Shown: positions 25,403-64,000 of the stretch, piece by piece
Position numbering within the stretch: position 1 is the stretch's first letter
Layout of the letters: each line of letters opens with the position of its first letter
Assembly: GCF_002118315.1 (NCBI RefSeq)
Contig: NZ_MTSZ01000002.1
Coordinates: 620,001 to 684,000, forward strand
Direction: 5' to 3'
DNA: 64,000 bases
DNA from: Kiloniella majae
GTDB taxonomy: Bacteria; Pseudomonadota; Alphaproteobacteria; Kiloniellales; Kiloniellaceae
Notes under the pieces: model-generated
Database searches by the model: none
Told to the model about the DNA's origin: nothing
What the model saw: the letters and a program-made list of their open reading frames with translations, nothing else
Position numbers and translations under genes: made by a program

Positions 25403-25636
25403 ATGTTATACCTTACCCGAAAAATTGGTGAATCAGTCATCATTAACAATGACATAGAGGTCAAGGTTGTTGATATCCGTGGAAAATCAGTAAAAATTGG
25501 CTTCACGTTCCCAGAAGACGCAACCGTTCTACGACAGGAACTTCACGAAAGAATTCAAGAAGAAAATAAAGCCGCTGTCGCCGGATCATTGGACATGCTT
25601 GGTATCGACTTGGATCAATCCGCAGAAGAAGACTAG
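25403..25636 (+). CDS. csrA: Carbon storage regulator CsrA
   Basis: 77 residues, RNA-binding translational regulator. Begins MLYLTRKIGESVIINNDIEV; strand 5 carries the RNA-contact stretch VLRQELHERI. Binds GGA motifs in mRNA leaders, and in many bacteria it represses flagellin translation until FliW sequesters it. FliW (46998) and GGA-rich flagellin leaders are in this window. Heads a block with an FlhB-C-like gene, an unknown gene, fliO and fliP. Confidence 0.96.
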   Translation: MLYLTRKIGESVIINNDIEVKVVDIRGKSVKIGFTFPEDATVLRQELHERIQEENKAAVAGSLDMLGIDLDQSAEED

Positions 25637-46997: not shown

Positions 46998-47507
46998 ATG
47001 TTGGACTTGGAAACAAATTATAAAGTTCAGAATTTTGCCGGGATCACAATGCCGAAGGCCGAGGAAGTGTCAAATAACGTTATAACGCTGAAAACCCGCT
47101 TTGGGGTGATGGAAATAGACCGCGATAAAACCATCAAAGTTCCGAAAGGTATTGTCGGTTTTTCTGAGTACAAAGAGTATGGTTTGTCAGTTCCATCACA
47201 TACAGTGCTGGACGGCTATATGCTTTTGCAGTCCATTGATGAAGCAGATTTGACTTTTATTCTAAAACCGTACGACTTAGCCAGTGGAGAGATAGAAGAC
47301 AAAGATCTCGCTGGGGCAATGAACCAATATGCTATTGCACCGGAAAACCTTGCCGTGATGTTAGTTACAACTTTACGCCAAACGCCGAATGCCATTCAAA
47401 AAACCGTTAACTTACGGGCCCCTGTTTTTATAGATACTGAAAATAAACAGGCTTGGCAGCATATTTTAAACTCTGAAAAATATAATGTTCGCCACGCGGT
47501 AAACTAG
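46998..47507 (+). CDS. fliW: Flagellar assembly factor FliW (CsrA antagonist)
   Basis: 169 residues from the ATG at 46998, which follows AGAGAG; a TTG at 46971 is in frame but lacks support. Core: TLKTRFGVMEIDRDKTIKVP then KGIVGFSEYKEYGL, and the C-terminal NLRAPVFIDTENKQAWQ. FliW binds CsrA and flagellin, releasing flagellin mRNA from CsrA when flagellin is low in the cell. Encoded at the end of the hook-filament operon, with csrA in the same cluster. Confidence 0.92.
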   Translation: MLDLETNYKVQNFAGITMPKAEEVSNNVITLKTRFGVMEIDRDKTIKVPKGIVGFSEYKEYGLSVPSHTVLDGYMLLQSIDEADLTFILKPYDLASGEIEDKDLAGAMNQYAIAPENLAVMLVTTLRQTPNAIQKTVNLRAPVFIDTENKQAWQHILNSEKYNVRHAVN

Positions 47508-48446: not shown

Positions 48447-48680
48447 TCAAATCCTCAAAGCAAATTGAACCACTTACTGACTAATGTCGGTAAGTTTCCG
48501 TGAAGAGTGCAACTTCAGGCATGGTAAGATGGCCCCATCTGTTACATTCCCGCTTGTTTTTCAGAAGTACCCCCAAGCCTAGAGAGCGCGCCCTCTTCAG
48601 ATATCGTTTCATCATCATGCGCGATGAGCTTGACTTAAGCCACTGCATTACATTTGGCAGCGATAGATAATTGATTCTCA
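48447..48680. other. Unassigned spacer between rfbA and methyltransferase gene
   Basis: A stem-loop CTTACTGAC / GTCGGTAAG with loop TAAT (48473-48494) follows rfbA and could end it. A minus-strand open frame of 66 codons (48481-48681) starts with TTG inside the methyltransferase stop, has no ribosome site and matches no family I recognise. The stretch may be gene debris. Confidence 0.4.
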
Positions 48681-49418
48681 ATCACCTTTTCCACAAACCA
48701 GCATTATGCTCGAACAAAGATCAGGGTACACTTGCCCCAATTGATAACAACCTTCAAGATACTCTTTTGATACAATGTCAGTTTGAAGAAGTTGATCCCA
48801 TTGAAAGTTAGCGAGCGCTTTAAAGAAAATACCTGTTCGCTGATATATTTTGAGTCCGGCTTTAGCTGCATCCCGTTCCAGAGTATCCAAACCATAAGTA
48901 ATCCTGTGACCATGCTCGGATTCACCGGGAGTAACAGCTGAATTATGATCAACAATTCCCATCTTTACTGCAATTTGTCTTGATGGCGCATTAGCATTTG
49001 GGCAAATCAGGAAAAATCGTCCTTCATCAGACAAAAAATCTTTATTAATCTTGCCTAGAACCTCAACTGGATCATCTAGATGCTCGAGGACATGTGTTAA
49101 AATGATATTATCAAATCTCTTTACCGGATTGAAGTTCTCAATCAGTACGTTTTCGAGCTCAACTTGCGACTTTACACTATCATTGACATTACGCATTGCA
49201 TCAGACGAGGCCTCAACACAAGTTACGGCTGAAAACAAATTCAAATCCAGCAGTAACTTAGTAAGATGCCCTTCATAACTCCCCAACTCAAGCAAACTCC
49301 CCGCTTTCATAAAAGGTAACATTGAGCGCACCATAAAGGGATGCATTACATCATAGTCAAAGCCATAAAAATATTGTCTCTCGGCGTTATTTTCTTGTTC
49401 TCTATTATAATCCCTCAT
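48678..49418 (-). CDS. Class I SAM-dependent methyltransferase
   Basis: 246 residues. Motif I is SLLELGSYEGHLTKLLLDL, motif II/post-I CVEASSDAM, motif IV NIILTHVLEHLDDPVEVLGK. Rossmann-fold methyltransferase of the UbiE/type-11 kind. Last gene of the minus-strand sugar operon (formyltransferase, two beta-propellers, methyltransferase), so it probably O- or N-methylates a glycan residue. Substrate not determinable. Confidence 0.85.
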   Translation of the reverse strand: MRDYNREQENNAERQYFYGFDYDVMHPFMVRSMLPFMKAGSLLELGSYEGHLTKLLLDLNLFSAVTCVEASSDAMRNVNDSVKSQVELENVLIENFNPVKRFDNIILTHVLEHLDDPVEVLGKINKDFLSDEGRFFLICPNANAPSRQIAVKMGIVDHNSAVTPGESEHGHRITYGLDTLERDAAKAGLKIYQRTGIFFKALANFQWDQLLQTDIVSKEYLEGCYQLGQVYPDLCSSIMLVCGKGD

Positions 49419-49430
49419 GATCCCCCCTTG

Positions 49431-50384
49431 TTAAAATTTAATTTTTGCAACACCAAAACCATTTTCACCAAAATTGTTTCCATTATAGGCACAATATAAC
49501 TCATTATTAAGTACAAAGAGATTAGGATAACACTGCATCTCGAGATCCCATTCTCGGCGTAAAACACTCCCCTCAAAGAATGTATCATCCCGAACCCAGG
49601 AAGTCAGATCACTCGACGATGCATAACCTAGTTTATAAGCTCTTTCTCCACCAAGTCTAAAATCAAAAACATCTCTATGGCAAAAAATCATATGATACTT
49701 ACCGCGATAATATGCCACTGATGGTAAAGCCTGACACTCTTCTTTTCTGACAGGATCAATAATAAAATGTCCAGATCGTGACCAGGAGACCCGATCATCA
49801 GACGTTGCTTTTGCAATTTTGTAGTGTCTTTGAGGAATCTTCTGGCTCGTTTTGGTTAACCAGCGGTCTCCAAAAATATACCACATATGCCATTGCCCAT
49901 TAAAGGCTCGGACGAAAGCATCCCCAACCATAAAAGGTTCACTGTAATTCGATGACATTATAGGACCAGGGTAACATTTCTTAAAATGATAACCGTCCTT
50001 GCTTGTAGCCATGCCAATGGACATGTCGATATCAACACTCGACCGTCGGCTCCATCCAGTGGTATAAGCGGTATACCCGTCTTCAGTCGCAGTGACACTG
50101 AAGGGAAAAATACCATGCTCATCAAACGTTCCAAGATCACCAACATCAAGAATGTGCTCTGACGAATATCTAATTATTGACGTTAAGTTTTGATCAAACT
50201 CCACCCAATAAGGCCTGGAAAGCCATTTATTATTTTTATCTTTTACCTGCGATGTGAAATAAAAAATAACACTCTTTTCTTTGACAATTGCTTGTGGAGA
50301 TTTCGCAAATGAAAGATTTTCATCAATTTTTTTAAGATCTTCTGTATTAAAAAGTAAGCCCAAATTCTCCCATTTGGTCATCAA
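49431..50384 (-). CDS. Beta-propeller glycosidase-like protein (GH43/GH130-like), copy 2
   Basis: 317 residues, no signal peptide. Repeated blade-like strands with Trp/Tyr and Asp/Glu, for example GWSRRSSVDIDMSIGMATSK, SEPFMVGDAFVRAFNGQWHM and YRGKYHMIFCHRDVFDFR. Paralogous throughout to the next gene. The five-bladed propeller fold is that of glycosidases/phosphorylases of GH43, GH32, GH130 type. Cytosolic and within a sugar operon, so it may act on activated or assembled glycan. Starts 4 nt inside the upstream gene. Activity inferred. Confidence 0.68.
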   Translation of the reverse strand: MMTKWENLGLLFNTEDLKKIDENLSFAKSPQAIVKEKSVIFYFTSQVKDKNNKWLSRPYWVEFDQNLTSIIRYSSEHILDVGDLGTFDEHGIFPFSVTATEDGYTAYTTGWSRRSSVDIDMSIGMATSKDGYHFKKCYPGPIMSSNYSEPFMVGDAFVRAFNGQWHMWYIFGDRWLTKTSQKIPQRHYKIAKATSDDRVSWSRSGHFIIDPVRKEECQALPSVAYYRGKYHMIFCHRDVFDFRLGGERAYKLGYASSSDLTSWVRDDTFFEGSVLRREWDLEMQCYPNLFVLNNELYCAYNGNNFGENGFGVAKIKF

Positions 50385-51352
50385 AAACCCTCTATTTCCG
50401 CCAAGCCTATACCCGTTTTTCCATTTCCATTACCACCATACAGTAGATAAATTCTTCCATTCACCTCAAAGCAATGCGGATACGCAACCATCTCGCTATC
50501 CCAACCAACATCACTTCGGTCCAAGTCAGAAATTTTCTCATCATCGCGACGCCATTCCATAAGGTCCGGCGATGTCGCATAACCGATCCGATAACTATTA
50601 TCTGGATTGTTTCGAAAATCAAAAGCATCTCGATAACAGTAAAACATGTGATAGAGCCCTTTTTTATAAAAAATGTCCGGGCAAGCTTGTGCTTCCTCCC
50701 TCCCCAAACGATCTTCTATAATATTCCTCTCAAGTCTATCCCAGGAAACCAAATCATCAGAAAAAGCTATTCTGAGCTTATAAATAATCTCAGGCCGCCC
50801 CTGCTCATCGACGACCCATTTTACACCCGATGTATAAGAAAGAACGTATCGACCATTAAAACGTCTCAACTTAGGAGATGTTATAACGAACGGTTCAGAA
50901 CAATATGGCGATAAAACAGGCCCACACCCCAACTTTTGGAACGTTCTTCCTCTATCACGACTTTTAGCTATGCCAATGGAAATATTAAACGGCACTGAAC
51001 TGCACCTGGTCCACCCACCGTATGCAGCAACAATATCTTCACCGTCCTTCAAAACACTGACAGGGTAAGTTCCAAATTCGTCAAATTCACCTAGACCTCC
51101 CAGCTCGAGGCAAGGGGCACTCGAAATACCAATAATTTCTGATAAATTGTCTTTATTTAAATCAATAAACGCCATTCGACTTACATACATATTATCTGTA
51201 TCTGGCTTCCCACGAGTACAAAAATAAACTCGAACTTTATCATTAAAAACCAATGCATTAGGAGCTTGAGCAAAATCGATCATCCAATCAGGCGTTTCAA
51301 GATAATCTGCTGGGTTAAAAATAACGCCCATTTTATGTACTTGGAAATTCAT
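50381..51352 (-). CDS. Beta-propeller glycosidase-like protein (GH43/GH130-like), copy 1
   Basis: 323 residues. Same architecture as its downstream paralogue: N-terminal GVIFNPADYLETPDWMIDFA, then GLGEFDEFGTYPVSV, GGWTRCSSVPFNISIGIAKS, CSEPFVITSPKLRRFNGRYV, MFYCYRDAFDFR, and GGNGNGKTGIGLAEIE. Shared acidic and Arg positions between both copies suggest a retained active site. Overlaps the formyltransferase stop by 4 nt and the paralogue by 4 nt. Enzyme activity not proven by sequence. Confidence 0.68.
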   Translation of the reverse strand: MNFQVHKMGVIFNPADYLETPDWMIDFAQAPNALVFNDKVRVYFCTRGKPDTDNMYVSRMAFIDLNKDNLSEIIGISSAPCLELGGLGEFDEFGTYPVSVLKDGEDIVAAYGGWTRCSSVPFNISIGIAKSRDRGRTFQKLGCGPVLSPYCSEPFVITSPKLRRFNGRYVLSYTSGVKWVVDEQGRPEIIYKLRIAFSDDLVSWDRLERNIIEDRLGREEAQACPDIFYKKGLYHMFYCYRDAFDFRNNPDNSYRIGYATSPDLMEWRRDDEKISDLDRSDVGWDSEMVAYPHCFEVNGRIYLLYGGNGNGKTGIGLAEIEGF

Positions 51353-51963
51353 TGAACCCTCGTATAAGAAGTATAGATAAGTTTTAATGCAGTTATTAAA
51401 TTTGGCCCTTCTAAATCAAAAATCCTCCCGCCAAGCTCCCAAGCTGTTTCATTTGGCAAAACATTAAGTTTTTTTTGACTAATAATTTCACCCGCATCAA
51501 CATCTTCCGTAACGTAATGAACGGTACAGCCCGCGATCTGCTCTTTGTTCTTCAAAACGGCTTCTTGTACTTTTACACCATACATCCCAATCCCCCCATA
51601 ATCTGGTAAAAGAGAAGGGTGTGTATTAATGATTATTTTTCTTTTTGCTTCTTCAATAAAACACGCAGGTAAAATAGGCATAAATCCAGCCAAGATAAAA
51701 ACATCAATGGCATCAATAAGATCATTATCAAAAACCAAATCATAACTGATTTTTTGATTTACCTTAGATAAAAGTAAGTGAGGAATATTGGCTCGTTTGG
51801 CATGGTTCAGAGCATCACAAACTTTATCAACAATAACTAGTTTAATTGTAAAGTAATCGCCCCCCAAATTATCTATTAGATATTTTAGATTACCACCACC
51901 GCCTGAACAAAAAACAGCTACTCCAAGAGGTAACATAGGTTTACTAGATATAGCCTGTGACAC
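51349..51963 (-). CDS. PurN-like formyltransferase in glycosylation island
   Basis: 204 residues. Formyltransferase fold with the folate-site loop FCSGGGGNLKYLID, the catalytic stretch IINTHPSLLPDYGG (Asn and His) and YVTEDVDAGEII (Asp). All three catalytic residues of the PurN/sugar-formyltransferase group are present. The canonical GAR transformylase reads NIHPSLLP; here it is NTHPSLLP. Context in a sugar operon suggests N-formylation of an amino sugar with 10-formyl-tetrahydrofolate, but a second PurN cannot be excluded. First gene of its operon. Confidence 0.8.
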   Translation of the reverse strand: MSQAISSKPMLPLGVAVFCSGGGGNLKYLIDNLGGDYFTIKLVIVDKVCDALNHAKRANIPHLLLSKVNQKISYDLVFDNDLIDAIDVFILAGFMPILPACFIEEAKRKIIINTHPSLLPDYGGIGMYGVKVQEAVLKNKEQIAGCTVHYVTEDVDAGEIISQKKLNVLPNETAWELGGRIFDLEGPNLITALKLIYTSYTRVQ

Positions 51964-52090
51964 AACATTCTAACCAATTATATAAGAGATAAAAAACTTC
52001 ATATGATAAAGCTGAACAAATCTTCATTCAGATATGCTTTCTACTTATCACATTGTGGTAATGAATATACCAAGCTATGAAGCTCACATA

Positions 52091-52789
52091 TCATATTAAT
52101 TCGTATTTCAACAAAATATCATCCTTGATATGGCAACATGCATTAAACATCAGGACATCAATGATTGATAACCATGGAATAAAAGTATTTGAGAACTGAG
52201 CATATGAAATAGGTTTACTAAGTACAAAACTTAAATCTATTCCCATACGAGAAAAATCTTCTTTAGAATAAAGCTCTTGGCCACCAATTGCATTCACATA
52301 CTCAGTCGCCTGAACAGCCTTACAAATAGAAAAAATCTTGTCCTGCCCTTTAAGATTATGATCAATATCAATCTCTGAGCTAATCAATATTTTGGTATCG
52401 AGATTTAATTCATCGCTGACCTTGCATATCGAAGAATGAAGAAACTTAAAAAGATTTTGTTCATCATTTTCAATAATATCCGACACCATAGAGTAAGCAG
52501 GTTTAAAATAGGGGGCTTTTCTATATGCCTCTTTAATCTGGTTAAGAAACTTAATACGATTAAACGAAGGAGCAATCGATCTATCTCGAATTTCACAAAA
52601 ATCTGATTGCTTGGTTAGCGGTAATGAAATTTGAAAATCCGAATGATCTCGAAGCAACCTATTCCGATTTATCCATCCCTTTTTGGTATATTTAATATTA
52701 TCATACAAGATAAACAGATCGACAGAATGTATTAATTGGAAATAGCCAATATAAGGAAAAAAGTATGGCTGCATTATAGCTACTTTCAT
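52091..52789 (-). CDS. WbqC family protein
   Basis: 232 residues. Family start AIMQPYFFPYIGYFQLIHS and the core VNAIGGQELYSKEDF and FIPWLSIIDVLMFN. WbqC-like proteins occur in O-antigen and flagellin glycan loci and are predicted to take part in nucleotide-sugar acylation or transfer; the reaction is not established. Stands between the formyltransferase operon and the OGT gene. Confidence 0.88.
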   Translation of the reverse strand: MKVAIMQPYFFPYIGYFQLIHSVDLFILYDNIKYTKKGWINRNRLLRDHSDFQISLPLTKQSDFCEIRDRSIAPSFNRIKFLNQIKEAYRKAPYFKPAYSMVSDIIENDEQNLFKFLHSSICKVSDELNLDTKILISSEIDIDHNLKGQDKIFSICKAVQATEYVNAIGGQELYSKEDFSRMGIDLSFVLSKPISYAQFSNTFIPWLSIIDVLMFNACCHIKDDILLKYELI

Positions 52790-52861
52790 AAGAAAAAAAA
52801 TCTCCCCGATGAAATTAACACTATTCTACGCTCCTCTTTCCACTAACTCCTACTATAAATT

Positions 52862-55216
52862 TTATTCCTCCAAAGGAATATGAGAAGGTGCTTCACCATT
52901 ACAGTACTTTGACCACATCTTCTCAAAGGCATTTTCTAAAGAAGCGCACACCTTTGCCCCATTTGCAGAGACTTCGCTTAAGAAAAACGCCCTTAAAGAT
53001 AAACGTCTACTCTCCAAAATCTCAACATTTTTTGCAGCCCATACTGCCCGTTCAACATACTGTTCTAAAGAAGAGGCAATCATCTCCTCCTGACCGAAGA
53101 AACGCAGTAAAGAAGCACCTATATTTTCATGAAAAGCACGCTCTTTTGCTAGAGCAATAAAGTTTCGCCCCATATAAAGAAGGTCAAGTGACGTAGAAGC
53201 ACCATTATACGGGAAAGGATCCAGACCGATATCAAACTCATTCATTTCTTCTAAATACTCTAGGAAATGTGAACGCGCCTTCAATATCAGTCTATCTCTT
53301 TCAATACCTAGGCGATCAATGCATTCATAGAGGTCATTAGTAAATTTATCTCCCTCCAGATTATCAACTTTAATCATTAGCCTGGATTCAGGTACTTGCT
53401 GTAAAATTTCCCCCCACGTCTCTATACACACCGAGGTAGCTTTTCCAGCCCGATTAAAATTGGCAAATGTAATATACCCATTTTTCTTATACGGAAGTTC
53501 CCTAGAGAGTATCGCCTCAGACCCCTCACGAAGGTTATAACTCGTATAGCCAGCAACATGAGCAAGCTTCTCAACAAAGAGATCTTCATACTCTAATGGC
53601 ACGGATAAGGGTTGAGTAATATAATAATCAATACTATCTAGCCCAGTTGTCGCAGGGTAGCCAATATAACTCGCTTGTATTGGGGCAGGTTTATAACTTA
53701 GCGCCTTCAGACGATTACTTGCAGTATGGCCAGATAAATCGACAAGAATATGGATTTGATCATCAACAATTTGCTCACATAACTTATCATCTGACAATCC
53801 TGAGACATCTCTCCTTTTATCGTAAACTTGCTCTATTTCAGCATTAATATTTTTTGAAATATTATCTTCTCGAGATTCCTGAGAATACAAGAAAATTTCA
53901 AATTTATTCCGATCATGATGTTCTACAACAGGAAGCCAATAATATGAGACGACATGATTACCAAAATCTCCCGAAATATAACCAATACGAAGCTTTTCAA
54001 CTTTGCCAGGGTTAAACTTATAGTTCTGAACTCGCTCATCAATTGACGCAGCATGCTTATTTTGCCACTTCCGAGCCTCTTTTAAATGATCTTCGGAGGT
54101 AACGTTTTTTTCATGCAAAATGGTAAACAGAAGATTGCTATGATAATCAGATCTATCCGGGGCAAGCTCCATGGCTATCCCATAACATTCCCTGGCTTTC
54201 AGACTATCGCCCATGAGAGTGTAAGTATGACCCAAGTTATTGAAAGCATAACTATATTCAGGATTTAAATGAAGACATTCAAAGTAACACTCTAGAGCGT
54301 CACTAAGCTTACCCATACTACGAAGTGCATTACCATAATTAAATATGACATCAATATCATCAGGATCTTTTGCTCGTGCCTTTTTTAAAATCTCAACTGA
54401 CTTATCGTGTATATTCAAGCGCCCGAGCACCAGTCCATACATTTTAAGAGCAGGAAGATAGTCAGGATTTATCTCATGGGCCTTACCAGAAAATGTAAAC
54501 GCAGAATGTAGTTTAAAGTTTTTGAATGCAATAAGTGATAGTAAGTAATAATCCATTTCTGGTTGAGAGGCTTTATCAATACCTTTTCCAAGTAAAGATA
54601 CAGCTTCGTTCTCTCGACCAAGGCCATTTAGACAACTAGCAAATCCGGTTCGGATATTACTGTCATAAGGATTATCAACCAACAATCTTTTATAATACGC
54701 CAAGCCATCAGCGTGATGCCCTAGATTGACACAACACTTTGCCAATCTAGCCATTATAATGTGATTATCAGGATCTAATTCCAGTGCCTTTGTATAAGCA
54801 CCAAGGGCACCGTCATAATCTTCGAGTTTGAATACTGAGTTTCCAAGTTGTTCATATCCTTCAAAAAAATCTTCTTTAAAATGCACACAATGAGAAAAAC
54901 ACTCAACAGCAAGATTATCTAAATCATGCTGTTGAAAGAAAACTCCGAAGTTATAATAATCCGAATATCTGACAGAAGATAATTTTGACAACTCATCAAA
55001 TTTTAACCGAAATAGCTCTTCGTTACTTTGAATGAGTGCATCAATTGATTCTGTAAATAAAAAAACAGGGTGTTTATTCTTTTTTTTTAAATTTTTTTTT
55101 GCAATTTCGGATGCGCTATTAAATTCTTTATTCATTAAATATTGCAAAGCTTCTTCTGCAGCTTTTTCAACTTTAAAGTTGAATTTCTTTCCCTGCTTCA
55201 CCTGATCCCCACACAT
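52862..55216 (-). CDS. TPR-containing O-linked glycosyltransferase (GT41, OGT/SPINDLY type)
   Basis: 784 residues. The N-terminal half (about 15-375) consists of ten or so TPR repeats (for example AYTKALELDPDNHIIMARLA, SYAFNNLGHTYTLMGDSLKA). The C-terminal half is a GT41 domain: LRIGYISGDFGNHVVSYYWL, DLSGHTASNRLKALSYKPAP, IQASYIGYPATTGLDSIDYY, and FDIGLDPFPYNGASTSLDLL. These enzymes glycosylate Ser/Thr of cytosolic proteins. Placed just upstream of fliS-fliD-flagellin genes, so flagellin is the likely acceptor. Confidence 0.9.
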   Translation of the reverse strand: MCGDQVKQGKKFNFKVEKAAEEALQYLMNKEFNSASEIAKKNLKKKNKHPVFLFTESIDALIQSNEELFRLKFDELSKLSSVRYSDYYNFGVFFQQHDLDNLAVECFSHCVHFKEDFFEGYEQLGNSVFKLEDYDGALGAYTKALELDPDNHIIMARLAKCCVNLGHHADGLAYYKRLLVDNPYDSNIRTGFASCLNGLGRENEAVSLLGKGIDKASQPEMDYYLLSLIAFKNFKLHSAFTFSGKAHEINPDYLPALKMYGLVLGRLNIHDKSVEILKKARAKDPDDIDVIFNYGNALRSMGKLSDALECYFECLHLNPEYSYAFNNLGHTYTLMGDSLKARECYGIAMELAPDRSDYHSNLLFTILHEKNVTSEDHLKEARKWQNKHAASIDERVQNYKFNPGKVEKLRIGYISGDFGNHVVSYYWLPVVEHHDRNKFEIFLYSQESREDNISKNINAEIEQVYDKRRDVSGLSDDKLCEQIVDDQIHILVDLSGHTASNRLKALSYKPAPIQASYIGYPATTGLDSIDYYITQPLSVPLEYEDLFVEKLAHVAGYTSYNLREGSEAILSRELPYKKNGYITFANFNRAGKATSVCIETWGEILQQVPESRLMIKVDNLEGDKFTNDLYECIDRLGIERDRLILKARSHFLEYLEEMNEFDIGLDPFPYNGASTSLDLLYMGRNFIALAKERAFHENIGASLLRFFGQEEMIASSLEQYVERAVWAAKNVEILESRRLSLRAFFLSEVSANGAKVCASLENAFEKMWSKYCNGEAPSHIPLEE

Positions 55217-55413: not shown

Positions 55414-55890
55414 CTACACACTAAATGAAGCATTTGATGGAGAAATATTCTCGCCATTTGAGGCGGAAAAATCATTCGGCTCCCCTTTTACACCGCCCCC
55501 AGATTGACTGCTATCACCAATCTGTTCAGCAACTGTAATCCACGTTTCTTTCATTGTTCTTAAACTAGTCAAAACATCTTCAAAAACAGCTTCGGGATTT
55601 CGGGAATTAGCCTGCATCATTCTCATGAACAAGCTATCATAAAATTCGTGAAGCATCGGGGAAACATCTCCCCCGTTTTCAAAGTCCAGCTGCCCTTGCA
55701 GACCAATAATAATTTTTGACGCCTTATCAATTGCAATAAATCTTGCCTCAAAATCTTGCGCATCATGTGCTTTCTTGGCATCATTAATCAAACGGATTGC
55801 ACCTTCATACAACATGATAATGGCTTTGAGCGGGCTTACATTTTTAGAAGCCTGAGAATAAGCATTTGCGCCATAAGTATTAGGATACAT
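55414..55890 (-). CDS. fliS: Flagellar export chaperone FliS
   Basis: 158 residues. N-terminal NAYSQASKNVSPLKAIIMLY and YEGAIRLINDAKKAHDAQDF match FliS; helical core, then a polar Gly/Ser-rich C-terminal tail longer than usual. Keeps flagellin unfolded and blocks premature polymerisation. Downstream of fliD. Confidence 0.93.
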   Translation of the reverse strand: MYPNTYGANAYSQASKNVSPLKAIIMLYEGAIRLINDAKKAHDAQDFEARFIAIDKASKIIIGLQGQLDFENGGDVSPMLHEFYDSLFMRMMQANSRNPEAVFEDVLTSLRTMKETWITVAEQIGDSSQSGGGVKGEPNDFSASNGENISPSNASFSV

Positions 55891-57641: not shown

Positions 57642-58043
57642 TTATGCTTCTGTATCCAGATTAACATTTACCAAGGATGGTAAACTTGACTGCTTTGGAT
57701 AATTACCCAACATCGTTTTACTCGGGAATTCTGAAATTACAGCGTTATTATTCTCATCAATCAAACGAACAACTAAACGACCGGAATCACTATCGCGATA
57801 GGTCACAATGTTTGATGACAACTGAGACGCAGCGGCCGCATCGATAGAAACACCAGAGACAGATTGAGGTCCAGCTTTAGCGCTAAGTGATTGCGCTGTT
57901 TTTGCCTCTTCATTATGCGGAACATTAACAGCAGCTTGAGTTTTAGGTGCATTTCCCGAATTTAATCCTAAAGCACGTGAACCAGAAGCTGAAGTCTTCG
58001 GAATAGGTTGAGCAGGTTGCCCAGAGATAGTTATTTCTGACAT
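57642..58043 (-). CDS. flaG: FlaG family flagellar protein
   Basis: 133 residues: low-complexity N-terminus, then the FlaG domain (SNIVTYRDSDSGRLVVRLID, VISEFPSKTMLG). Influences filament length in other bacteria. Preceded by an unusually long, GGA-rich ribosome site (AGGAAGGAGGAGG). First gene of the flaG-fliD-fliS block. Confidence 0.85.
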   Translation of the reverse strand: MSEITISGQPAQPIPKTSASGSRALGLNSGNAPKTQAAVNVPHNEEAKTAQSLSAKAGPQSVSGVSIDAAAASQLSSNIVTYRDSDSGRLVVRLIDENNNAVISEFPSKTMLGNYPKQSSLPSLVNVNLDTEA

Positions 58044-58045
58044 CA

Positions 58046-58062
58046 GACCTCCTCCTTCCTAA
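58046..58062 (-). promoter_or_regulatory. Extended GGA-rich ribosome binding site of flaG
   Basis: On the minus strand AGGAAGGAGGAGG precedes the flaG ATG, containing three to four overlapping GGA triplets. Such a site both binds ribosomes strongly and resembles CsrA targets. Confidence 0.5.
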
Positions 58063-58102
58063 AAAATTAAAACAAAAAAAGTATAACAGATAACTAACCT
58101 TT

Positions 58103-58134
58103 AAAGAAGTCGTGGATACCGAAATACCCACGAC
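58103..58134 (-). terminator. 3' hairpin of flagellin gene 1
   Basis: Ten-bp stem GTCGTGGGTA / TATCCACGAC around TTTCGG, followed by TTCTTT on the minus strand. The same structure follows all three tandem flagellins. Confidence 0.75.
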
Positions 58135-58153
58135 CAATAACTATTATAAGAGT

Positions 58154-58966
58154 TTATTGAAGAACTCTCAATAGTGTTTGCGGTATCTGATTAGCCTGTG
58201 ACAAGGCAGAAACTGCCGCCTGCGTTAGCACATTTGCCGTTACAAGCTTGCTTTGTTCAGCAGCCAAATCCACATCTTTAAGCTGAGAGTTCGCAGCTTC
58301 AATATTCTCAATGGACGTAGCAACCTGTTGCCCGCGCGTTTCAAATCTTGAAATCAACGCACCAACATTTGCACGACCTTCCGCAATTGCATCAATCTGA
58401 GTATTGACATTTGTAAATGCAGTTGCAGCGGTACCGGTAGCTTGCACATCCCCACCAACGACAGCAACATTCACGCCAGACAAGTTAGCAGCAATATTAT
58501 TCACGGCACCTGAAGCACTTAAACCAACGAAAAAGTTCTGATTATACGAACCATCAATCAGCGCACTACCGTTAAAGGTCGTCGTTTGCTCAATTCCAAG
58601 AACTTCATCATCAAGGGCTTGAAACTCGGCATCAATATAATCACGCTCATCATCTGTAACTGTACCAGACAATGCCTGTGCCGCCAATGCCTTCATACGC
58701 TGAAGAACATCACTGACACGCGCCAAGCCACCATCGGCAACTTGTAGGATAGAAGCCGCTTGGGAAGCGTTTGTAGCCGCCTGCCTAAGCGCAGTAACGT
58801 CAGATGTCAACTTAGTACTGATCGCAAGACCGGCAGCATCATCAGATGCACGCACGATTCTAGATCCAGAAGCAAGTTTTGCAACTGAATTTGAAGCATT
58901 AGATGAATTGTTGTTAAGAAAACGAATTGCAGAGTTTGCTGCAGTATTTGTACCAACTACGGGCAT
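58154..58966 (-). CDS. Flagellin, tandem copy 1
   Basis: 270 residues from the ATG at 58966, which has AGAAGGA 9 nt upstream and gives the normal flagellin N-terminus (PVVGTNTAANSAIRFLNNNS). An open frame extends 19 codons further but lies in the leader. D0/D1 helices at both ends (SGSRIVRASDDAAGLAISTK; KDVDLAAEQSKLVTANVLTQ) with a short surface domain. Major filament subunit. The central variable stretch (GVNVAVVGGDVQATGTAATA) is shared with copy 3. Confidence 0.95.
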   Translation of the reverse strand: MPVVGTNTAANSAIRFLNNNSSNASNSVAKLASGSRIVRASDDAAGLAISTKLTSDVTALRQAATNASQAASILQVADGGLARVSDVLQRMKALAAQALSGTVTDDERDYIDAEFQALDDEVLGIEQTTTFNGSALIDGSYNQNFFVGLSASGAVNNIAANLSGVNVAVVGGDVQATGTAATAFTNVNTQIDAIAEGRANVGALISRFETRGQQVATSIENIEAANSQLKDVDLAAEQSKLVTANVLTQAAVSALSQANQIPQTLLRVLQ

Positions 58967-58997
58967 AATATAATTCCTTCTACTTGAAGTATGTTTA

Positions 58998-59020
58998 GCT
59001 AAACCCATCCTGGGTAAAGC
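58998..59020 (-). promoter_or_regulatory. Leader hairpin with AGGAU loop, flagellin 1 (CsrA-type site)
   Basis: On the mRNA ACCC-AGGAU-GGGU forms a short stem presenting GGA in the loop, extended by GCU/AGC across a UU/UU internal loop. It overlaps a GUUUAGCUAAAC palindrome. A GGA triple (AGGAAGGAACGGA, 59055-59067) lies upstream and the Shine-Dalgarno itself is AAGGA. Typical CsrA target layout. Confidence 0.55.
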
Positions 59021-59128
59021 CATTTTAAAGGTCGCCTTCTTGGTAACCCACTATTCCGTTCCTTCCTGAACCGAAATAGTTTAGCTGAAAATATACAAAA
59101 CATATCTTCAATTACGTCTTAAATTTTG

Positions 59129-59157
59129 CATGTAGAGTATTGAAATTTAGTTAACAA
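59129..59157 (-). promoter_or_regulatory. Promoter-like element of flagellin 1
   Basis: TTGTTA (59152-59157) and TACATG (59129-59134) separated by 17 bp, in a block conserved before all three tandem flagellins. The -10 is weak. No sigma-54 element is seen here. Confidence 0.35.
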
Positions 59158-59210
59158 GAGCAAAGTATCATTAACATCATACCATACATACAACTTACAA
59201 TATTGACTTT

Positions 59211-59242
59211 AAAGAAGCCGTGGATACCGAAATATCCACGAC
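59211..59242 (-). terminator. 3' hairpin of flagellin gene 2
   Basis: GTCGTGGATA / TATCCACGGC stem around TTTCGG with a following TTCTTT, the same as after copy 1 apart from compensating changes. Confidence 0.75.
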
Positions 59243-59262
59243 CAATAACTACTATTAAGAGC

Positions 59263-60075
59263 TTATTGAAGAACTCTCAATAGTGTTTGCGGTATCTGAT
59301 TAGCCTGTGACAAGGCAGAAACTGCCGCCTGCGTCAGCACATTTGCCGTTACAAGCTTACTTTGTTCAGCAGCCAAATCCACATCTTTAAGCTGAGAGTT
59401 CGCAGCTTCAATATTTTCAATGGATGTCGCAACCTGCTGTCCACGCGTTTCAAATCTTGAAATCAACGCACCAACATTTGCACGACCTTCCGCAATCGCA
59501 TCAATTTGAGTATTGACGGCCGTAAACGCAGTTCCTGCATTAGCGGTACTTTGCACATCGCCACCAGGCTGTGAAACATTCACAGTTGACAAGTTAGCAG
59601 CAATATTGTTCACGGCACCAGACGCACTCAGTCCAACAAAGAAGTTCTGATTGTAAGTACCATCAATCAACGCACTACCGTTAAAGGTCGTCGTTTGCTC
59701 AATTCCAAGAATTTCATCATCAAGGGCTTGGAACTCAGCGTCAATATAATCACGCTCATCATCTGTAACTGTACCAGACAATGCCTGTGCTGCCAGCGCC
59801 TTCATACGTTGAAGCACATCACTGACACGCGCCAGGCCACCATCAGCAACCTGAAGAATAGAAGCCGCTTGGGAAGCATTTGTAGCCGCCTGCTTAAGCG
59901 CAGTAACGTCAGATGTCAGTTTTGTACTGATCGCAAGACCGGCAGCATCATCAGATGCACGCACGATTCTAGACCCAGAAGCAAGTTTTGCCACTGACGT
60001 TGAAGCATTAGATGAATTGTTGTTAAGAAAACGAATTGCAGAGTTTGCTGCAGTATTTGTACCAACTACGGGCAT
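59263..60075 (-). CDS. Flagellin, tandem copy 2
   Basis: 270 residues, start at 60075 by the same AGAAGGA rule. Same as copy 1 except for scattered changes and a distinct surface stretch (TVNVSQPGGDVQSTANAGTA). Its 5' half is nearly identical to copy 3 instead. Filament subunit; the altered surface loop may change glycosylation or antigenicity. Confidence 0.95.
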   Translation of the reverse strand: MPVVGTNTAANSAIRFLNNNSSNASTSVAKLASGSRIVRASDDAAGLAISTKLTSDVTALKQAATNASQAASILQVADGGLARVSDVLQRMKALAAQALSGTVTDDERDYIDAEFQALDDEILGIEQTTTFNGSALIDGTYNQNFFVGLSASGAVNNIAANLSTVNVSQPGGDVQSTANAGTAFTAVNTQIDAIAEGRANVGALISRFETRGQQVATSIENIEAANSQLKDVDLAAEQSKLVTANVLTQAAVSALSQANQIPQTLLRVLQ

Positions 60076-60106
60076 AATATAATTCCTTCTACTTGAAGTA
60101 TGTTTA

Positions 60107-60129
60107 GCTAAACCCATCCTGGGTAAAGC
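60107..60129 (-). promoter_or_regulatory. Leader hairpin with AGGAU loop, flagellin 2 (CsrA-type site)
   Basis: Identical to the copy 1 hairpin (ACCC-AGGAU-GGGU plus GCU/AGC). Confidence 0.55.
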
Positions 60130-60237
60130 CACTTTAAAGGTCGCCTTCTTGGCAACCCACTATTCCGTTCCTTCCTGAATCGAAATAGTTTCGCTGAAAA
60201 TATACAAAACATATCTTCAACTACGCCTCAAGTATTG

Positions 60238-60266
60238 CATGTTGAGTATTGAAATTTAGTTAACAA
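60238..60266 (-). promoter_or_regulatory. Promoter-like element of flagellin 2
   Basis: TTGTTA (60261-60266) with 17-bp spacing to AACATG (60238-60243). The -10 is the poorest of the three, which may mean lower expression of this copy. Confidence 0.3.
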
Positions 60267-60319
60267 GAACAAAGTATCATTAACATCATACCATACATAC
60301 AACTTACAATATTGACCTT

Positions 60320-60351
60320 AAAGAAGCCGTGGATACCGAAATATCCACGAC
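60320..60351 (-). terminator. 3' hairpin of flagellin gene 3
   Basis: GTCGTGGATA / TATCCACGGC around TTTCGG, as after copy 2. Confidence 0.75.
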
Positions 60352-60371
60352 CAATAACTATTATTAAGAGC

Positions 60372-61184
60372 TTATTGAAGAACTCTCAATAGTGTTTGCG
60401 GTATCTGATTAGCCTGTGACAAGGCAGAAACTGCCGCCTGCGTTAGCACATTTGCCGTTACAAGCTTGCTTTGTTCAGCAGCCAAATCCACATCTTTAAG
60501 CTGAGAGTTCGCAGCTTCAATATTCTCAATGGACGTAGCAACCTGTTGCCCGCGCGTTTCAAATCTTGAAATCAACGCACCAACATTTGCACGACCTTCC
60601 GCAATTGCATCAATCTGAGTATTGACATTTGTAAATGCAGTTGCAGCGGTACCGGTAGCTTGCACATCCCCACCAACGACAGCAACATTCACGCCAGACA
60701 AGTTAGCAGCAATATTATTCACGGCACCTGAAGCACTTAAACCAACGAAAAAGTTCTGATTATACGAACCATCAATCAGCGCACTACCGTTAAAGGTCGT
60801 CGTTTGCTCAATTCCAAGAACTTCATCATCAAGGGCTTGAAACTCGGCGTCAATATAATCACGCTCATCATCTGTAACTGTACCAGACAATGCCTGTGCT
60901 GCCAGCGCCTTCATACGTTGAAGCACATCACTGACACGCGCCAGGCCACCATCAGCAACCTGAAGAATAGAAGCCGCTTGGGAAGCATTTGTAGCCGCCT
61001 GCTTAAGCGCAGTAACGTCAGATGTCAGTTTTGTACTGATCGCAAGACCGGCAGCATCATCAGATGCACGCACGATTCTAGACCCAGAAGCAAGTTTCGC
61101 CACTGACGTAGAAGCATTCATAGAGTTATTGTTAAGAAAACGGATTGCAGAGTTTGCTGCAGTATTTGTACCAACTACGGGCAT
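60372..61184 (-). CDS. Flagellin, tandem copy 3 (mosaic)
   Basis: 270 residues, start at 61184. The C-terminal-coding part (60373-60848) is base-for-base copy 1, while the adjoining N-terminal-coding part (60849 to about 61096) is base-for-base copy 2. The first residues then differ slightly (NNNSMNAS). This is a gene-conversion mosaic. Functionally an intact filament subunit. Confidence 0.95.
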   Translation of the reverse strand: MPVVGTNTAANSAIRFLNNNSMNASTSVAKLASGSRIVRASDDAAGLAISTKLTSDVTALKQAATNASQAASILQVADGGLARVSDVLQRMKALAAQALSGTVTDDERDYIDAEFQALDDEVLGIEQTTTFNGSALIDGSYNQNFFVGLSASGAVNNIAANLSGVNVAVVGGDVQATGTAATAFTNVNTQIDAIAEGRANVGALISRFETRGQQVATSIENIEAANSQLKDVDLAAEQSKLVTANVLTQAAVSALSQANQIPQTLLRVLQ

Positions 61185-61215
61185 AATATAGTTCCTTCTA
61201 CTTGAAGTATGCTTA

Positions 61216-61238
61216 GCTAAACCCATCCTGAGTAAAGC
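61216..61238 (-). promoter_or_regulatory. Leader hairpin with AGGAU loop, flagellin 3 (CsrA-type site)
   Basis: ACUC-AGGAU-GGGU: the C-to-U change keeps pairing through a G-U wobble, and the GCU/AGC closing pair is retained. Loop unchanged. Confidence 0.55.
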
Positions 61239-61346
61239 CACTTTAAAGGTCGCCTTCTTGGCAACCTACTATTCCATTCCTTCTTGGATCAAAATAGTTT
61301 CGCTAAAAATAAATCCAATTTATCTTCAACTACGTTACGAATCTTG

Positions 61347-61375
61347 TATATAGAATATTAAAATTTAGTTAACAA
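61347..61375 (-). promoter_or_regulatory. Promoter-like element of flagellin 3
   Basis: TTGTTA (61370-61375), 17-bp spacer, TATATA (61347-61352): the best -10 of the three copies. Confidence 0.4.
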
Positions 61376-61448
61376 ACGCAAGTGCCATTGATGAATAACA
61401 TTACAAATACCACCTATCACCTTGATAAATGATACAGTATTATGAAGA

Positions 61449-62552
61449 TTAAATAGAACGAATCCCATTAACAACGAACAAAATATCCTTTTCCGACAAG
61501 CTGGTGCTGAATGGCAAAGCAACAACAGTCTTATAAAACATATCAGCAACAGGGAAAGAATTATATGCGCTCAAGACATTAAACAATTGATTTCGATATA
61601 AGTGATCTTCCCACCAAATAGAAGCCCCAATACCTTTTTTTCTTAACGCCTTAACGACTACATTAGCTTTTTTACCATCAAGGGCTATATTAAGTGTGGA
61701 GCTTACTTTCATGTCCTCGTCAGGCAGGGAAGAAATATTTTCGCAGGTAGCAAAGTGGGCAAAATATTCTTTTCTTACCTTTGAATACCTCCGCTTCATT
61801 CCCTCAATACGATCAAATTGCGCCAGGCCAACAGCTGCGTGATATTCACTCAACTTATAATTTCCACCATAAGACAAGGCAACTCGACCATCAACAAAGC
61901 CAAACTGGCTAAATTGACGTGCTTTTTGAATAATATTCTTATCTCTAGAAATAATCGCCCCGCCCTCACCAATCCCAAAAGCTTTTGTCGCATGAAGACT
62001 AACGACAGCAGGACAGTCACCAGGCTCTAGAGAATAAAAAGAAGCAGCAGCATCTATAACCACAGGAATTCCTGCTTTTACCGATAAAGCATCCCAATCA
62101 ACAACCTTAACGGTTCCACCAAAAGGGACAACCGGCATGATGACATCAGGCCTGGGATTTGAGGGGATTGCTAAATACTCTGAAACAATTTGCGGCGTTA
62201 AAGCCCCTGTCACAGGATCGACATCACAAAACAAGACATCCATACCTACTTCAACAATCGCTTGAGCGGATGCTACAAATGTCCAAGCTGGTAACAAGCA
62301 GGTACGACGCTTATTTTTAGAGGATGCTTTAAAATCAGAAGAAACGGCTTTTAGGGCAATCGACAGACCCGATGTGGCACTTGAAACTGTCGTAATATTT
62401 TTATTCTGCACATTGAAATGGTCAGCTAAACGATCTTCAAAGGCACATAATCTTGGACCAAAATTCGTATACCACTTATCCCTATCTATCATCTCCAAAT
62501 AAGACACCAAATCTTTTACAGTCGGCATATCGGGAATCAATAACGGTATCAA
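61449..62552 (-). CDS. DegT/DnrJ/EryC1/StrS family sugar aminotransferase
   Basis: 367 residues, PLP-dependent fold type I. Lys190 in SLHATKAFGIGEGGAII is the Schiff-base lysine; VIDAAASFYSLEPGD carries the PLP-binding Asp. Typically transaminates dTDP- or UDP-keto-deoxy sugars to amino sugars. Sits between flagellin 3 and flagellin 4. With rfbA and the formyltransferase it suggests a (formylated) amino-deoxy sugar on flagellin. Regiochemistry (C3 or C4) not determinable. Confidence 0.88.
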   Translation of the reverse strand: MIPLLIPDMPTVKDLVSYLEMIDRDKWYTNFGPRLCAFEDRLADHFNVQNKNITTVSSATSGLSIALKAVSSDFKASSKNKRRTCLLPAWTFVASAQAIVEVGMDVLFCDVDPVTGALTPQIVSEYLAIPSNPRPDVIMPVVPFGGTVKVVDWDALSVKAGIPVVIDAAASFYSLEPGDCPAVVSLHATKAFGIGEGGAIISRDKNIIQKARQFSQFGFVDGRVALSYGGNYKLSEYHAAVGLAQFDRIEGMKRRYSKVRKEYFAHFATCENISSLPDEDMKVSSTLNIALDGKKANVVVKALRKKGIGASIWWEDHLYRNQLFNVLSAYNSFPVADMFYKTVVALPFSTSLSEKDILFVVNGIRSI

Positions 62553-62685
62553 AGCAGCCTCAATGAGTTAAATTAATTTTTGATTTTATATACTTAACAC
62601 ATCAGACCAAACTAAATCTTAAATATTTATTACTTTAGCCCAGCCCCTTTTAAAAACCTAAAATACAAATACGCCCTGACACATA

Positions 62686-62712
62686 TTTGGGCGCCCATCC
62701 TGGGCGCCCAAA
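62686..62712 (-). promoter_or_regulatory. Perfect 11-bp hairpin with AGGAU loop after flagellin 4
   Basis: TTTGGGCGCCC and GGGCGCCCAAA enclose AGGAT on the flagellin strand, 30 bp after the flagellin 4 stop. No T run follows, so it is not a standard terminator. The loop is the same AGGAU presented in the tandem flagellin leaders. Confidence 0.5.
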
Positions 62713-62741
62713 GAGCTATGTGAAAGTTAATAAGTACCAGG

Positions 62742-63608
62742 CTATTGCAGTAGTGATAACAGCGTCTGAGGCAACTGGTTCGCCTGAGACAATGCTGACA
62801 CCGAGGCTTGAACAAGTACCTGCGAAGATACAAGACGAGATTGCTCGGCAGCCAGATCGACATCCATCACAGATGAAAGTGCTGCATCAATGTTTTCCTT
62901 TGAAGTCGCAACCTGTTGTTGCCTGAATTCAAATCGAGAAACGATTGAGCCAAGATTTGCACGCGCTTCAGAAACTTCATTAATAGCCAGATCAACAGAG
63001 GCCATCGCTGTTGTAGCAGCAGCAGGTGTCGTCACAGTCGTAGAACTAAGAACCGTTCCACCTGAGGCCAAACCTCCCGATGTGAAATTACTTGCAGAAA
63101 TACTTAAAGACGAAATATCAACGGGAATGACATCTGCTGGCGTCACACCAACAAAAAAGTTAACCGTCCCAGTACCAAACTGTGCACCTGTACCATCCAA
63201 AAGAGACTCACCATTAAATCGCGTACTGCTTGCGATACCATTAATCTCTTCAAGTAATTGAGAGTACTCCGCATTGATAAAACCGCGTTCGATAACAGTC
63301 GGCACACCAGAAAGAGAGGCCGCAGCCAAGGATTTTAACCTCTGTAAAACATCTGCTATTCGTGCAAGACCACCATCACCGACCTGCATAACAGATGCAC
63401 CTTGCGCAGAGTTGATCGACGCTTGCTGCAACACATTACTATCAGCACGAAGTCGAGTACCAATTGCAAGTCCAGCGGCATCATCAGATGCATTCACGAT
63501 CCGAGAACCGGAAGCAAGTTTGGAAATTGAACTTCCAGATTTTGTGGAGTTCAAATTCAAAAAACGCAGCGCAGAGTTCGCTGCTGTATTCGTTGTTACT
63601 GTAGGCAT
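62742..63608 (-). CDS. Flagellin, divergent fourth copy
   Basis: 288 residues from the ATG at 63608, preceded by AAAGGA; a GTG five codons earlier lies in that site. Flagellin ends are conserved (TVTTNTAANSALRFLNLNST; MDVDLAAEQSRLVSSQVLVQ), but the middle is 18 residues longer and differs from the tandem set, with a Gly/Thr-rich insert. Probably a minor or alternate filament subunit. Confidence 0.94.
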   Translation of the reverse strand: MPTVTTNTAANSALRFLNLNSTKSGSSISKLASGSRIVNASDDAAGLAIGTRLRADSNVLQQASINSAQGASVMQVGDGGLARIADVLQRLKSLAAASLSGVPTVIERGFINAEYSQLLEEINGIASSTRFNGESLLDGTGAQFGTGTVNFFVGVTPADVIPVDISSLSISASNFTSGGLASGGTVLSSTTVTTPAAATTAMASVDLAINEVSEARANLGSIVSRFEFRQQQVATSKENIDAALSSVMDVDLAAEQSRLVSSQVLVQASVSALSQANQLPQTLLSLLQ

Positions 63609-64000
63609 GTTCTTTCCTTTCACATTTAGCTCAACGGAAGGCTGCTTGCCATTCCACCGCCCAAGACGGCATACGTTGAATTCGAAACAGAAAATGCAAA
63701 GGTCGTGCCAATTAAATTTTTATATACAAATCAAATACTTAAACAACATTTTCATATTTTATATAGAAAAAAATACCCCTATACATCTAGCAATATGTCG
63801 TTTTCTACCCCCTTTATGGAAAACGATTCCTAGTAATAAATAACAAATGAGGAAAAAAATACTCATCAACATTTCATCACCAGCAGTGCTATGCTAGCCC
63901 CCCCCCTACACATCACAAAGCTTTACTCAAATGACAAGATAACAAAAGAAACAAGAGACTTACTTCACACACAATTAAACACACGGCATTGTAATAAAAA
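63609..64000. other. Upstream region of flagellin 4 to window end
   Basis: 392 bp without a convincing gene. Near the flagellin a weak sigma-54-like element is readable on the minus strand (GGGCGG-N5-TGGCA, about 63647-63662, GG-N10-GC). A run of nine C residues lies at 63898-63906. Otherwise AT-rich with no recognised feature. Confidence 0.4.

Follow-up and report, generated by a model that had tools for sequence, protein, structure and literature searches.

The flagellar cluster of Kiloniella majae raises the question of whether its flagellin genes are controlled by CsrA and its antagonist FliW, although the organism belongs to the Alphaproteobacteria, a class known for the FlaF/FlbT system. 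The window analyzed here, a 64-kb stretch (positions 620,001 to 684,000) of contig NZ_MTSZ01000002.1 from a 4.4-Mb genome, carries csrA, fliW and, on its minus strand, three flagellin genes in tandem, with start positions at 58966, 60075 and 61184. An earlier note on this DNA had proposed that the leaders of the three genes are CsrA targets and that the FliW-CsrA-flagellin switch operates in this organism. With a probability of roughly 0.8, the flagellin leaders are predicted here to be CsrA-responsive and to stand under such a feedback switch in Kiloniella-type Alphaproteobacteria, based on the leader structures, their conservation in relatives and the distribution of the protein partners.

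Structure of the flagellin leaders

Leaders were taken as the last 114 nucleotides 5' of each start codon, and the stability of each fold was compared with that of 200 dinucleotide shuffles. All three leaders, read on the minus strand, fold alike into four hairpins, designated H0, H1, H2 and H3, with a minimum free energy of -33.1 kcal/mol for the hairpin part of copy 1 (58967..59080; z -3.51, with 1 of 200 shuffles as stable), -39.1 for copy 2 (60076..60189; z -5.24) and -34.3 for copy 3 (61185..61298; z -4.02), the latter two being equaled by none of their 200 shuffles. In copy 1, H0 (59050..59080) is a long stem that holds a GGA cluster and ends in the loop AGGAAG, H1 (59029..59049) has the loop AAGAA, H2 (58996..59022) presents AGGAU at 59007-59011 as the first proposed CsrA site, and H3 (58975..58989) reads CUUC-AAGUA-GAAG followed by GA and forms the second. 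The corresponding hairpins lie at 60159-60189 (H0), 60138-60158 (H1), 60105-60131 (H2) and 60086-60098 (H3) in copy 2 and at 61268-61298, 61247-61267, 61214-61240 and 61195-61207, in the same order, in copy 3.

The leader elements described in the earlier note were all recovered. The GGA cluster reads AGGAAGGAACGGA at 59055-59067 in copy 1 and is identical in copy 2, whereas its counterpart in copy 3, AAGAAGGAATGGA, has one GGA fewer; the H0 loop of copy 3 is likewise AAGAA, without the GGA found in the AGGAAG loop of the others. The short hairpin with an AGGAU loop is present in each leader, its core being ACCC-AGGAU-GGGU in copy 1 (59003-59015), and the minimum-energy drawing pairs the outer A and U of AGGAU, leaving GGA as the loop. 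In copy 3 the core is ACUC-AGGAU-GGGU, a C-to-U change with pairing kept as a U-G wobble; this single change is weak evidence because the three leader regions have a mean column identity of 89%, and the covariation considered below comes from relatives. A Shine-Dalgarno sequence containing AAGGA is also present in all three leaders (58979-58975 in copy 1, 8 nucleotides 5' of the ATG), and the full AGAAGGA consists of the 3' arm of H3 plus the two bases that follow it. Five features go beyond the earlier note: H1, the folding of H3 into a hairpin and of H0 into one long hairpin, a fourth flagellin, and an AGGAU hairpin 3' of that gene.

When both strands of the window were searched for pentaloop hairpins with stems of at least 4 bp, all three A[AG]GUA hairpins and three of the six AGGAN hairpins were located in these leaders. 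Hexaloops of the type ANGGAN were tried as leader sites and rejected: four were counted in the window, and the three that were placed (stems of at least 5 bp) all lie outside the flagellin leaders. An Rfam search over 57900-64000 gave no match above the gathering score and two chance-level matches (E 4.3).

Conservation and covariation among relatives

The family sample comprised 23 genomes, 22 of them with flagellin matches, and yielded 81 leaders from 30 stretches after two start-less fragments, five matches of an isolated-paralogue type and the weakest or truncated matches had been left out. According to the protein start, 44 leaders belong to the MPVV class of the three window copies, 34 to MPTV (four of them the isolated paralogue), two to MPVI and one to MPTI. 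The 44 MPVV leaders originate from 17 genomes of three genera, with up to seven in one genome, and every one of them carries the motif CUUCA[AU]GUAGAAGGA 5' of the start as well as an AAGGA Shine-Dalgarno sequence.

At the place of H2, a search blind to loop sequence found a hairpin with a 5-nucleotide loop in 44/44 MPVV leaders, closed by a C-G pair in all of them. The loop is AGGAN in 33 (one row, L063:3432, was moved one base by hand before the count), whereas the stem changes in sequence but remains paired; the remaining loops are AAGAA (4), ATGAA (2) and AGGCA, TATGT, TATAT, GCGAC and GCGAT (1 each). The covariation search in related genomes that the earlier note had called for was positive for two stems. 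For H2 (44 leaders, 33 distinct rows), 92.9% of cells are paired, 78 cells are doubly changed where shuffles give 24.8, and covariation scores 0.801 (shuffles 0.284); neither value was reached in 500 shuffles, and slid versions of the stem score at most 0.247. For H1 (42 rows, 29 distinct, two L063 rows without an H1 stem being left out here and from the model alignment), 95.1% of cells are paired, 7/7 pairs are doubly changed (reached by 6/500 shuffles) and the score is 0.751 against 0.288. The H1 loop is AAGUA, AAGAA or their one-letter kin AGGUA in 33/44 leaders.

The sequence of H3 is invariant within the family, and support for this hairpin was therefore drawn from an informal comparison with other families, where the AAGUA loop sits on an H3 arm of UCC/GGA, and with named loci that carry CCUUC-AGGUA-GAAGG. 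Minimum-energy folds of the 44 MPVV leaders form H2 in 43 cases and H3 in 33, and H0-like hairpins occur in some relatives of the genus. A covariance model of H1-H3 matched only the three leaders in the window genome (150 of 449 candidates scored); applied to the whole class, it found the three-hairpin leader in 3/385 genomes, all of the same family, although weak matches may be lost because just 11 candidates per genome were scored.

Loop enrichment was assessed by shuffling on a set de-duplicated from 121 to 99 leaders, again requiring 4 bp or more in the pentaloop stem. One leader of the family group comes from a genome (G018) in which FliW was not found. The 65 family leaders contained 29 AGGAN loops where 0.52 were expected, and 21 leaders from other FliW families contained 11 where 0.21 were expected, so that shuffled leaders yield them at about 2% of the observed rate. 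A[AG]GUA loops numbered 43 against 0.20 and 6 against 0.01 in the same two groups, whereas eight FlbT leaders contained neither AGGAN (0.05 expected) nor A[AG]GUA loops (0.02 expected).

Protein partners and their distribution

Both partners named in the earlier note were confirmed, and each is the sole match of its kind in the genome. The csrA gene (25403..25636, plus strand) encodes 77 amino acids with a Pfam match to PF02599 (E 1.4e-20) and 81.5 bits against TIGR00202 (cut-off 70.1), although it scores under the cut-offs of two narrower NCBIfam models. The fliW gene (46998..47507, plus strand, ATG at 46998) lies 3' of flgK-flgL and matches PF02623 (E 2.7e-19 for the open reading frame from 46971); in Bacillus subtilis, fliW likewise lies 3' of flgK-flgL. 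The two genes are about 21 kb apart in one common flagellar cluster, and no match to FlaF or FlbT was found in the window genome.

The window CsrA carries a C-terminal extension, EENKAAVAGSLDMLG (reading EENKAAVAGS...), which resembles the tail of the solved CsrA 1t3o (EENNRAAALSS), presumably from B. subtilis. In the characterized systems, FliW docks on this C-terminal tail (PMC7652899, PMC7366521). The order has 55 CsrA matches, of which 40 were surveyed for the tail, one copy from G056 sharing its C-terminal part with a copy from G032. The tail motif EN[RK]AA occurs in 22/22 copies from 21 FliW-only genomes against 3/12 copies from FlbT-only genomes, in 5/5 copies from genomes where neither FliW nor FlbT was found, and not in the single copy from a genome with both. 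Residues 3, 36 and 43 are Y, F and L in the window protein and in 39/40 of the copies read. In one genome of the survey (G053, locus L198), the usual alphaproteobacterial CsrA is accompanied by another copy that has I3/A36/H43, the residues of gammaproteobacterial chains.

Within the 61 genomes of the order, CsrA was detected in 53, FliW in 39, FlbT and FlaF in 13 each and flagellin in 51, and FliW and FlbT occur together in only 2 of the 51 flagellin-bearing genomes, both of one genus. Across 385 genomes of the class, FliW was found in 64, FlbT in 134 and both in one (G407), against 22.3 expected (Fisher p 2e-12, uncorrected for phylogeny). FliW and FlbT are thus nearly mutually exclusive in Alphaproteobacteria.

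The leader features follow the same division. The order was counted per genome, each of its 11 FlbT-only genomes contributing one leader: GGA-type loops are present in 22/33 FliW-only versus 0/11 FlbT-only genomes, A[AG]GUA hairpins in 21/33 versus 0/11, and the Shine-Dalgarno motif (CUUCA[AGU]GUAGAAGG or CCA[AU]GUAGGA) in 28/33 versus 0/11. For the remainder of the class, stretches around FliW or FlbT were taken from 40 further genomes, of which 5 FliW and 16 FlbT stretches held flagellins above 180 bits; GGA-type loops were found in 4/8 FliW versus 1/25 FlbT leaders and the Shine-Dalgarno motif in 4/8 versus 0/25, and the finder detected A[AG]GUA hairpins in neither group (0/8 and 0/25). A further 24 named loci were chosen from 66. 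All three Kiloniella leaders among them have H1, H2 and H3, and 5/13 non-Kiloniella leaders that are alphaproteobacterial or unplaced have an A[AG]GUA hairpin on the Shine-Dalgarno sequence; of the other eight loci, one lacked a start and seven had neither hairpin type.

The proposed switch and its alternatives

The switch that the earlier note had suggested is supported jointly by the leader hairpins with their covarying H1 and H2 stems, the conservation of AGGAN, the presence of CsrA and FliW with the absence of FlaF and FlbT, and a CsrA tail that tracks FliW. From sequence comparison we infer CsrA binding, repression, relief by FliW and a hook checkpoint. Prior to hook completion, unexported flagellin would sequester FliW, and free CsrA dimers would occupy the AGGAN loops of H2 (and of H0) together with the Shine-Dalgarno GGA beside H3, a dimer bridging loop and Shine-Dalgarno GGA being expected to keep the ribosome off. 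Flagellin export would then free FliW to dock on the C-terminal tail of CsrA, which would lift repression of all three flagellin copies together. The repeated hairpins in each leader and the several copies per genome would also raise the local concentration of CsrA, and the three leaders may, as the earlier note proposed, titrate it as well.

A number of findings weigh against this reading. The interpretation in the earlier note needs two amendments: AGGAN is carried on a stem, but as an A-GGA-X pentaloop without the looped-out N of the high-affinity ANGGAX hexaloop, and the loops of H1 and H3 (ARGUA/AAGAA) are conserved without being GGA, which the CsrA model does not explain. Campylobacter jejuni sites selected by systematic evolution of ligands by exponential enrichment always have a base between A and GGA (PMC6692469), and H2 of the window lacks that base. 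The earlier note would have counted it as a refutation if relatives with csrA and fliW had lost the hairpin; the hairpin is kept in 44/44 MPVV leaders, but its AGGAN loop is lost in 11, all in genomes retaining both genes, and the loop is therefore dispensable in some copies. Among the pairs of H2, 8/9 are doubly changed, a count that 117/500 shuffles also reach. By the finder, 11/33 FliW-only genomes have no GGA-type loop (4 of these gave other flagellin classes only), the two genomes with both FliW and FlbT have it in 1/3 leaders, and it is found in 0/13 of the non-Kiloniella alphaproteobacterial or unplaced named leaders, whose genomes were not typed for FliW; the association tests are uncorrected for phylogeny. 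On the protein side, Y3/F36/L43 of this CsrA contrasts with I3/A36/H43 of the E. coli-type chain, FliW scores under the NCBIfam equivalog cut-offs though far over that of Pfam, and CsrA is retained in 11/11 FlbT-only genomes, so that it must have further roles.

The conserved ARGUA and AAGAA loops may reflect another protein, a looser CsrA (Y3/F36/L43) or degenerate sites. One alternative, which deserves serious consideration even though we would bet against it, regards each leader as an RNA with two inputs, where the AGGAN hairpins serve CsrA and the C-ARGUA/AAGAA-G pentaloops of H1 and H3 serve a second RNA-binding protein or a CsrA with a changed pocket. The enrichment of A[AG]GUA loops over shuffles in both leader groups, the covarying H1 stem with its restricted set of loops, the Shine-Dalgarno motif that separates FliW from FlbT leaders in the order and elsewhere in the class, the hairpins on the Shine-Dalgarno sequence of named loci, and the near-universal Y3/F36/L43 are all in its favor. 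However, AGGAA and AAGAA interchange at H0, H1 and H2, which could mean that a single binder uses both strong and weak sites; by the finder, none of the eight FliW leaders elsewhere in the class has an A[AG]GUA hairpin; and Y3/F36/L43 does not track the hairpins, because it is found in hairpin-less FlbT-only genomes as well. An improbable explanation dispenses with protein altogether: H3 would hide the Shine-Dalgarno sequence, as it does when the three window leaders are folded, until an upstream loop (AAGU or GGA) paired with its 5' arm (ACUU, UUC or UCC), or the hairpins would simply stabilize an mRNA that is abundant. The H1 loop AAGU is indeed complementary to ACUU of H3 in many leaders, as judged by eye, but this pairing spans just 3 to 4 bp, H3 is absent from the minimum-energy fold of some family leaders, AGGAN loops are unchanged whether a family has CUUC or UCC as its H3 arm, and an association with FliW over FlbT genomes is not predicted. 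It is more improbable still that the family leaders are alike by descent only, with AGGAN arising incidentally from sequence that resembles a ribosome site. The tandem copies were duplicated recently, as their column identity indicates, and the lack of phylogenetic correction leaves room for this explanation, but stems turn over with pairing kept while loops stay, and identical loops sit on unrelated stems in other families.

If the FliW-CsrA-flagellin switch is indeed at work in these leaders, it extends to the Alphaproteobacteria, and two unrelated modules for one job replace each other within one class. The system would offer natural leaders in up to seven copies per genome along with a CsrA tail that erodes in the absence of FliW, and the conserved non-GGA loop class could show a shift in CsrA specificity or reveal a new RNA-binding protein. 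A more speculative extension, which we think is probably wrong in at least some part, holds that Alphaproteobacteria have two mutually exclusive flagellin translation modules, FlaF/FlbT or FliW plus tail-bearing CsrA reading multi-hairpin leaders. In the latter module, a partner protein or a CsrA whose pocket is altered (Y3/F36/L43) would recognize pentaloops by a new code, C-[ARGNA or AGGAN]-G, and both the strong AGGAN hairpins and the non-GGA ARGUA hairpins of a leader would be read jointly.

Flagellin genes and their surroundings

The three tandem flagellins (58154..58966, 59263..60075 and 60372..61184, minus strand) each encode 270 amino acids with Flagellin_N and Flagellin_C domains. The flagellins of Kiloniella litopenaei, K. 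spongiae and Kiloniella sp. EL199 share 86-87% identity with a window flagellin over the full length, which puts the genome within or beside that genus; among the matches listed, the next relatives have 56% identity, or at most 67% over part of the protein. The flagellin chaperone gene fliS is located at 55414..55890 (minus strand; Pfam 2e-27).

A fourth flagellin of the MPTV class (62742..63608, minus strand, 288 amino acids) has a leader that differs from those of copies 1-3, and its 3' region contains a perfect 11-bp hairpin with the loop AGGAU (62686..62712, minus strand). A hairpin at this place was present in all seven genus genomes read (the window, L056, L058, L059, L061, L063 and L066), with four stem sequences and a loop of AGGAU or AGGAG in five and AGGUAU in two. 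In the window, no U run directly follows this hairpin, which is possibly a CsrA decoy in the 3' untranslated region. The fourth flagellin is also preceded by what we take to be a sigma54-like promoter, TTGGCACGACCTTTGCA, at about 63709 on the minus strand (about 6210 in L046); none was obvious by eye 5' of copies 1-3. An isolated, divergent paralogue (MPTVNG..., 267 amino acids where complete) lies on another contig (G000:C22:193502-193870), with matches of its type in 9/9 genus genomes; its leader, read in four (L047, L057, L060 and L064), has a hairpin with an AGGUAU loop.

Sugar and glycosylation genes are located within the flagellar cluster at 61449-62552 (minus), 47553-48446 (plus) and 48678-55216 (minus). 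A DegT/PseC-like aminotransferase sits between flagellin genes, and a nucleotidyl transferase, a formyl transferase, a WbqC-like gene and a glycosyltransferase 41 with tetratricopeptide repeats (TPR) are also present, making flagellin glycosylation possible.

Comparison with known systems

No report of a FliW-CsrA flagellin leader in Alphaproteobacteria was found in a literature search that mostly did not cover subscription journals, and within the same coverage nothing on topic was found for CsrA and flagellin in Azospirillum or for Kiloniella flagellin. A review of magnetotactic bacteria describes fliW as a CsrA antagonist and lists it in a cluster that has a single fliC (PMC7175107), and the search on FliW, FlbT and FlaF led to PMC4894983 and PMC8306008. 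In Caulobacter, FlaF/FlbT involve a protein that acts on the flagellin 5' untranslated region and is tied to hook assembly (PMC3930126, PMC4894983), and it has been suggested that this system may be analogous (PMC4894983). The switch proposed here would similarly place protein control at the flagellin 5' untranslated region of an alphaproteobacterium and tie it to hook assembly; the FlaF/FlbT proteins themselves are not found in the window genome, and FlbT-only genomes nearly always lack these hairpins.

The H2 hairpins resemble SL3 and SL4 of RsmZ, solved with RsmE, which have 5-nucleotide A-GGA-X loops closed by C-G (PMC4005645); H2 is the same C-[A-GGA-X]-G pentaloop with N omitted, a lower-affinity type, although RsmZ is a sponge small RNA whereas the H2 hairpins are in mRNA leaders. 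For RsmE, the missing looped-out N of ANGGAX lowers affinity and the core bases are described as irreplaceable (PMC4005645). Because the pentaloop is the weaker type for RsmE, binding strength here probably comes from several hairpins jointly. In C. jejuni, the flaA leader has two GGA hairpins, one at the ribosome-binding site, which are kept by compensatory changes, and flaA mRNA provides a precedent for a leader that titrates CsrA (PMC4894983). The window leaders share the GGA hairpins, the site at the ribosome-binding site and the compensatory stem changes; they differ in that the two ANGGA hairpins of flaA are described as hexaloops, whereas A-GGA-X pentaloops are found here along with non-GGA ARGUA/AAGAA hairpins.

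Another close parallel is the FliW-CsrA-hag system of B. subtilis, with two CsrA sites in the flagellin leader, one of them on the Shine-Dalgarno sequence (PMC7652899). Both systems have a CsrA with an extended C-terminus, FliW as antagonist, and an upstream site plus a Shine-Dalgarno GGA site in the flagellin leader; unlike B. subtilis, the alphaproteobacterial locus has three tandem copies, leaders of four hairpins and csrA about 21 kb from fliW. Combined, these comparisons suggest that the flagellin switch of Bacillus and Campylobacter also runs in Kiloniella, while its relatives within the class mostly use another system or neither.

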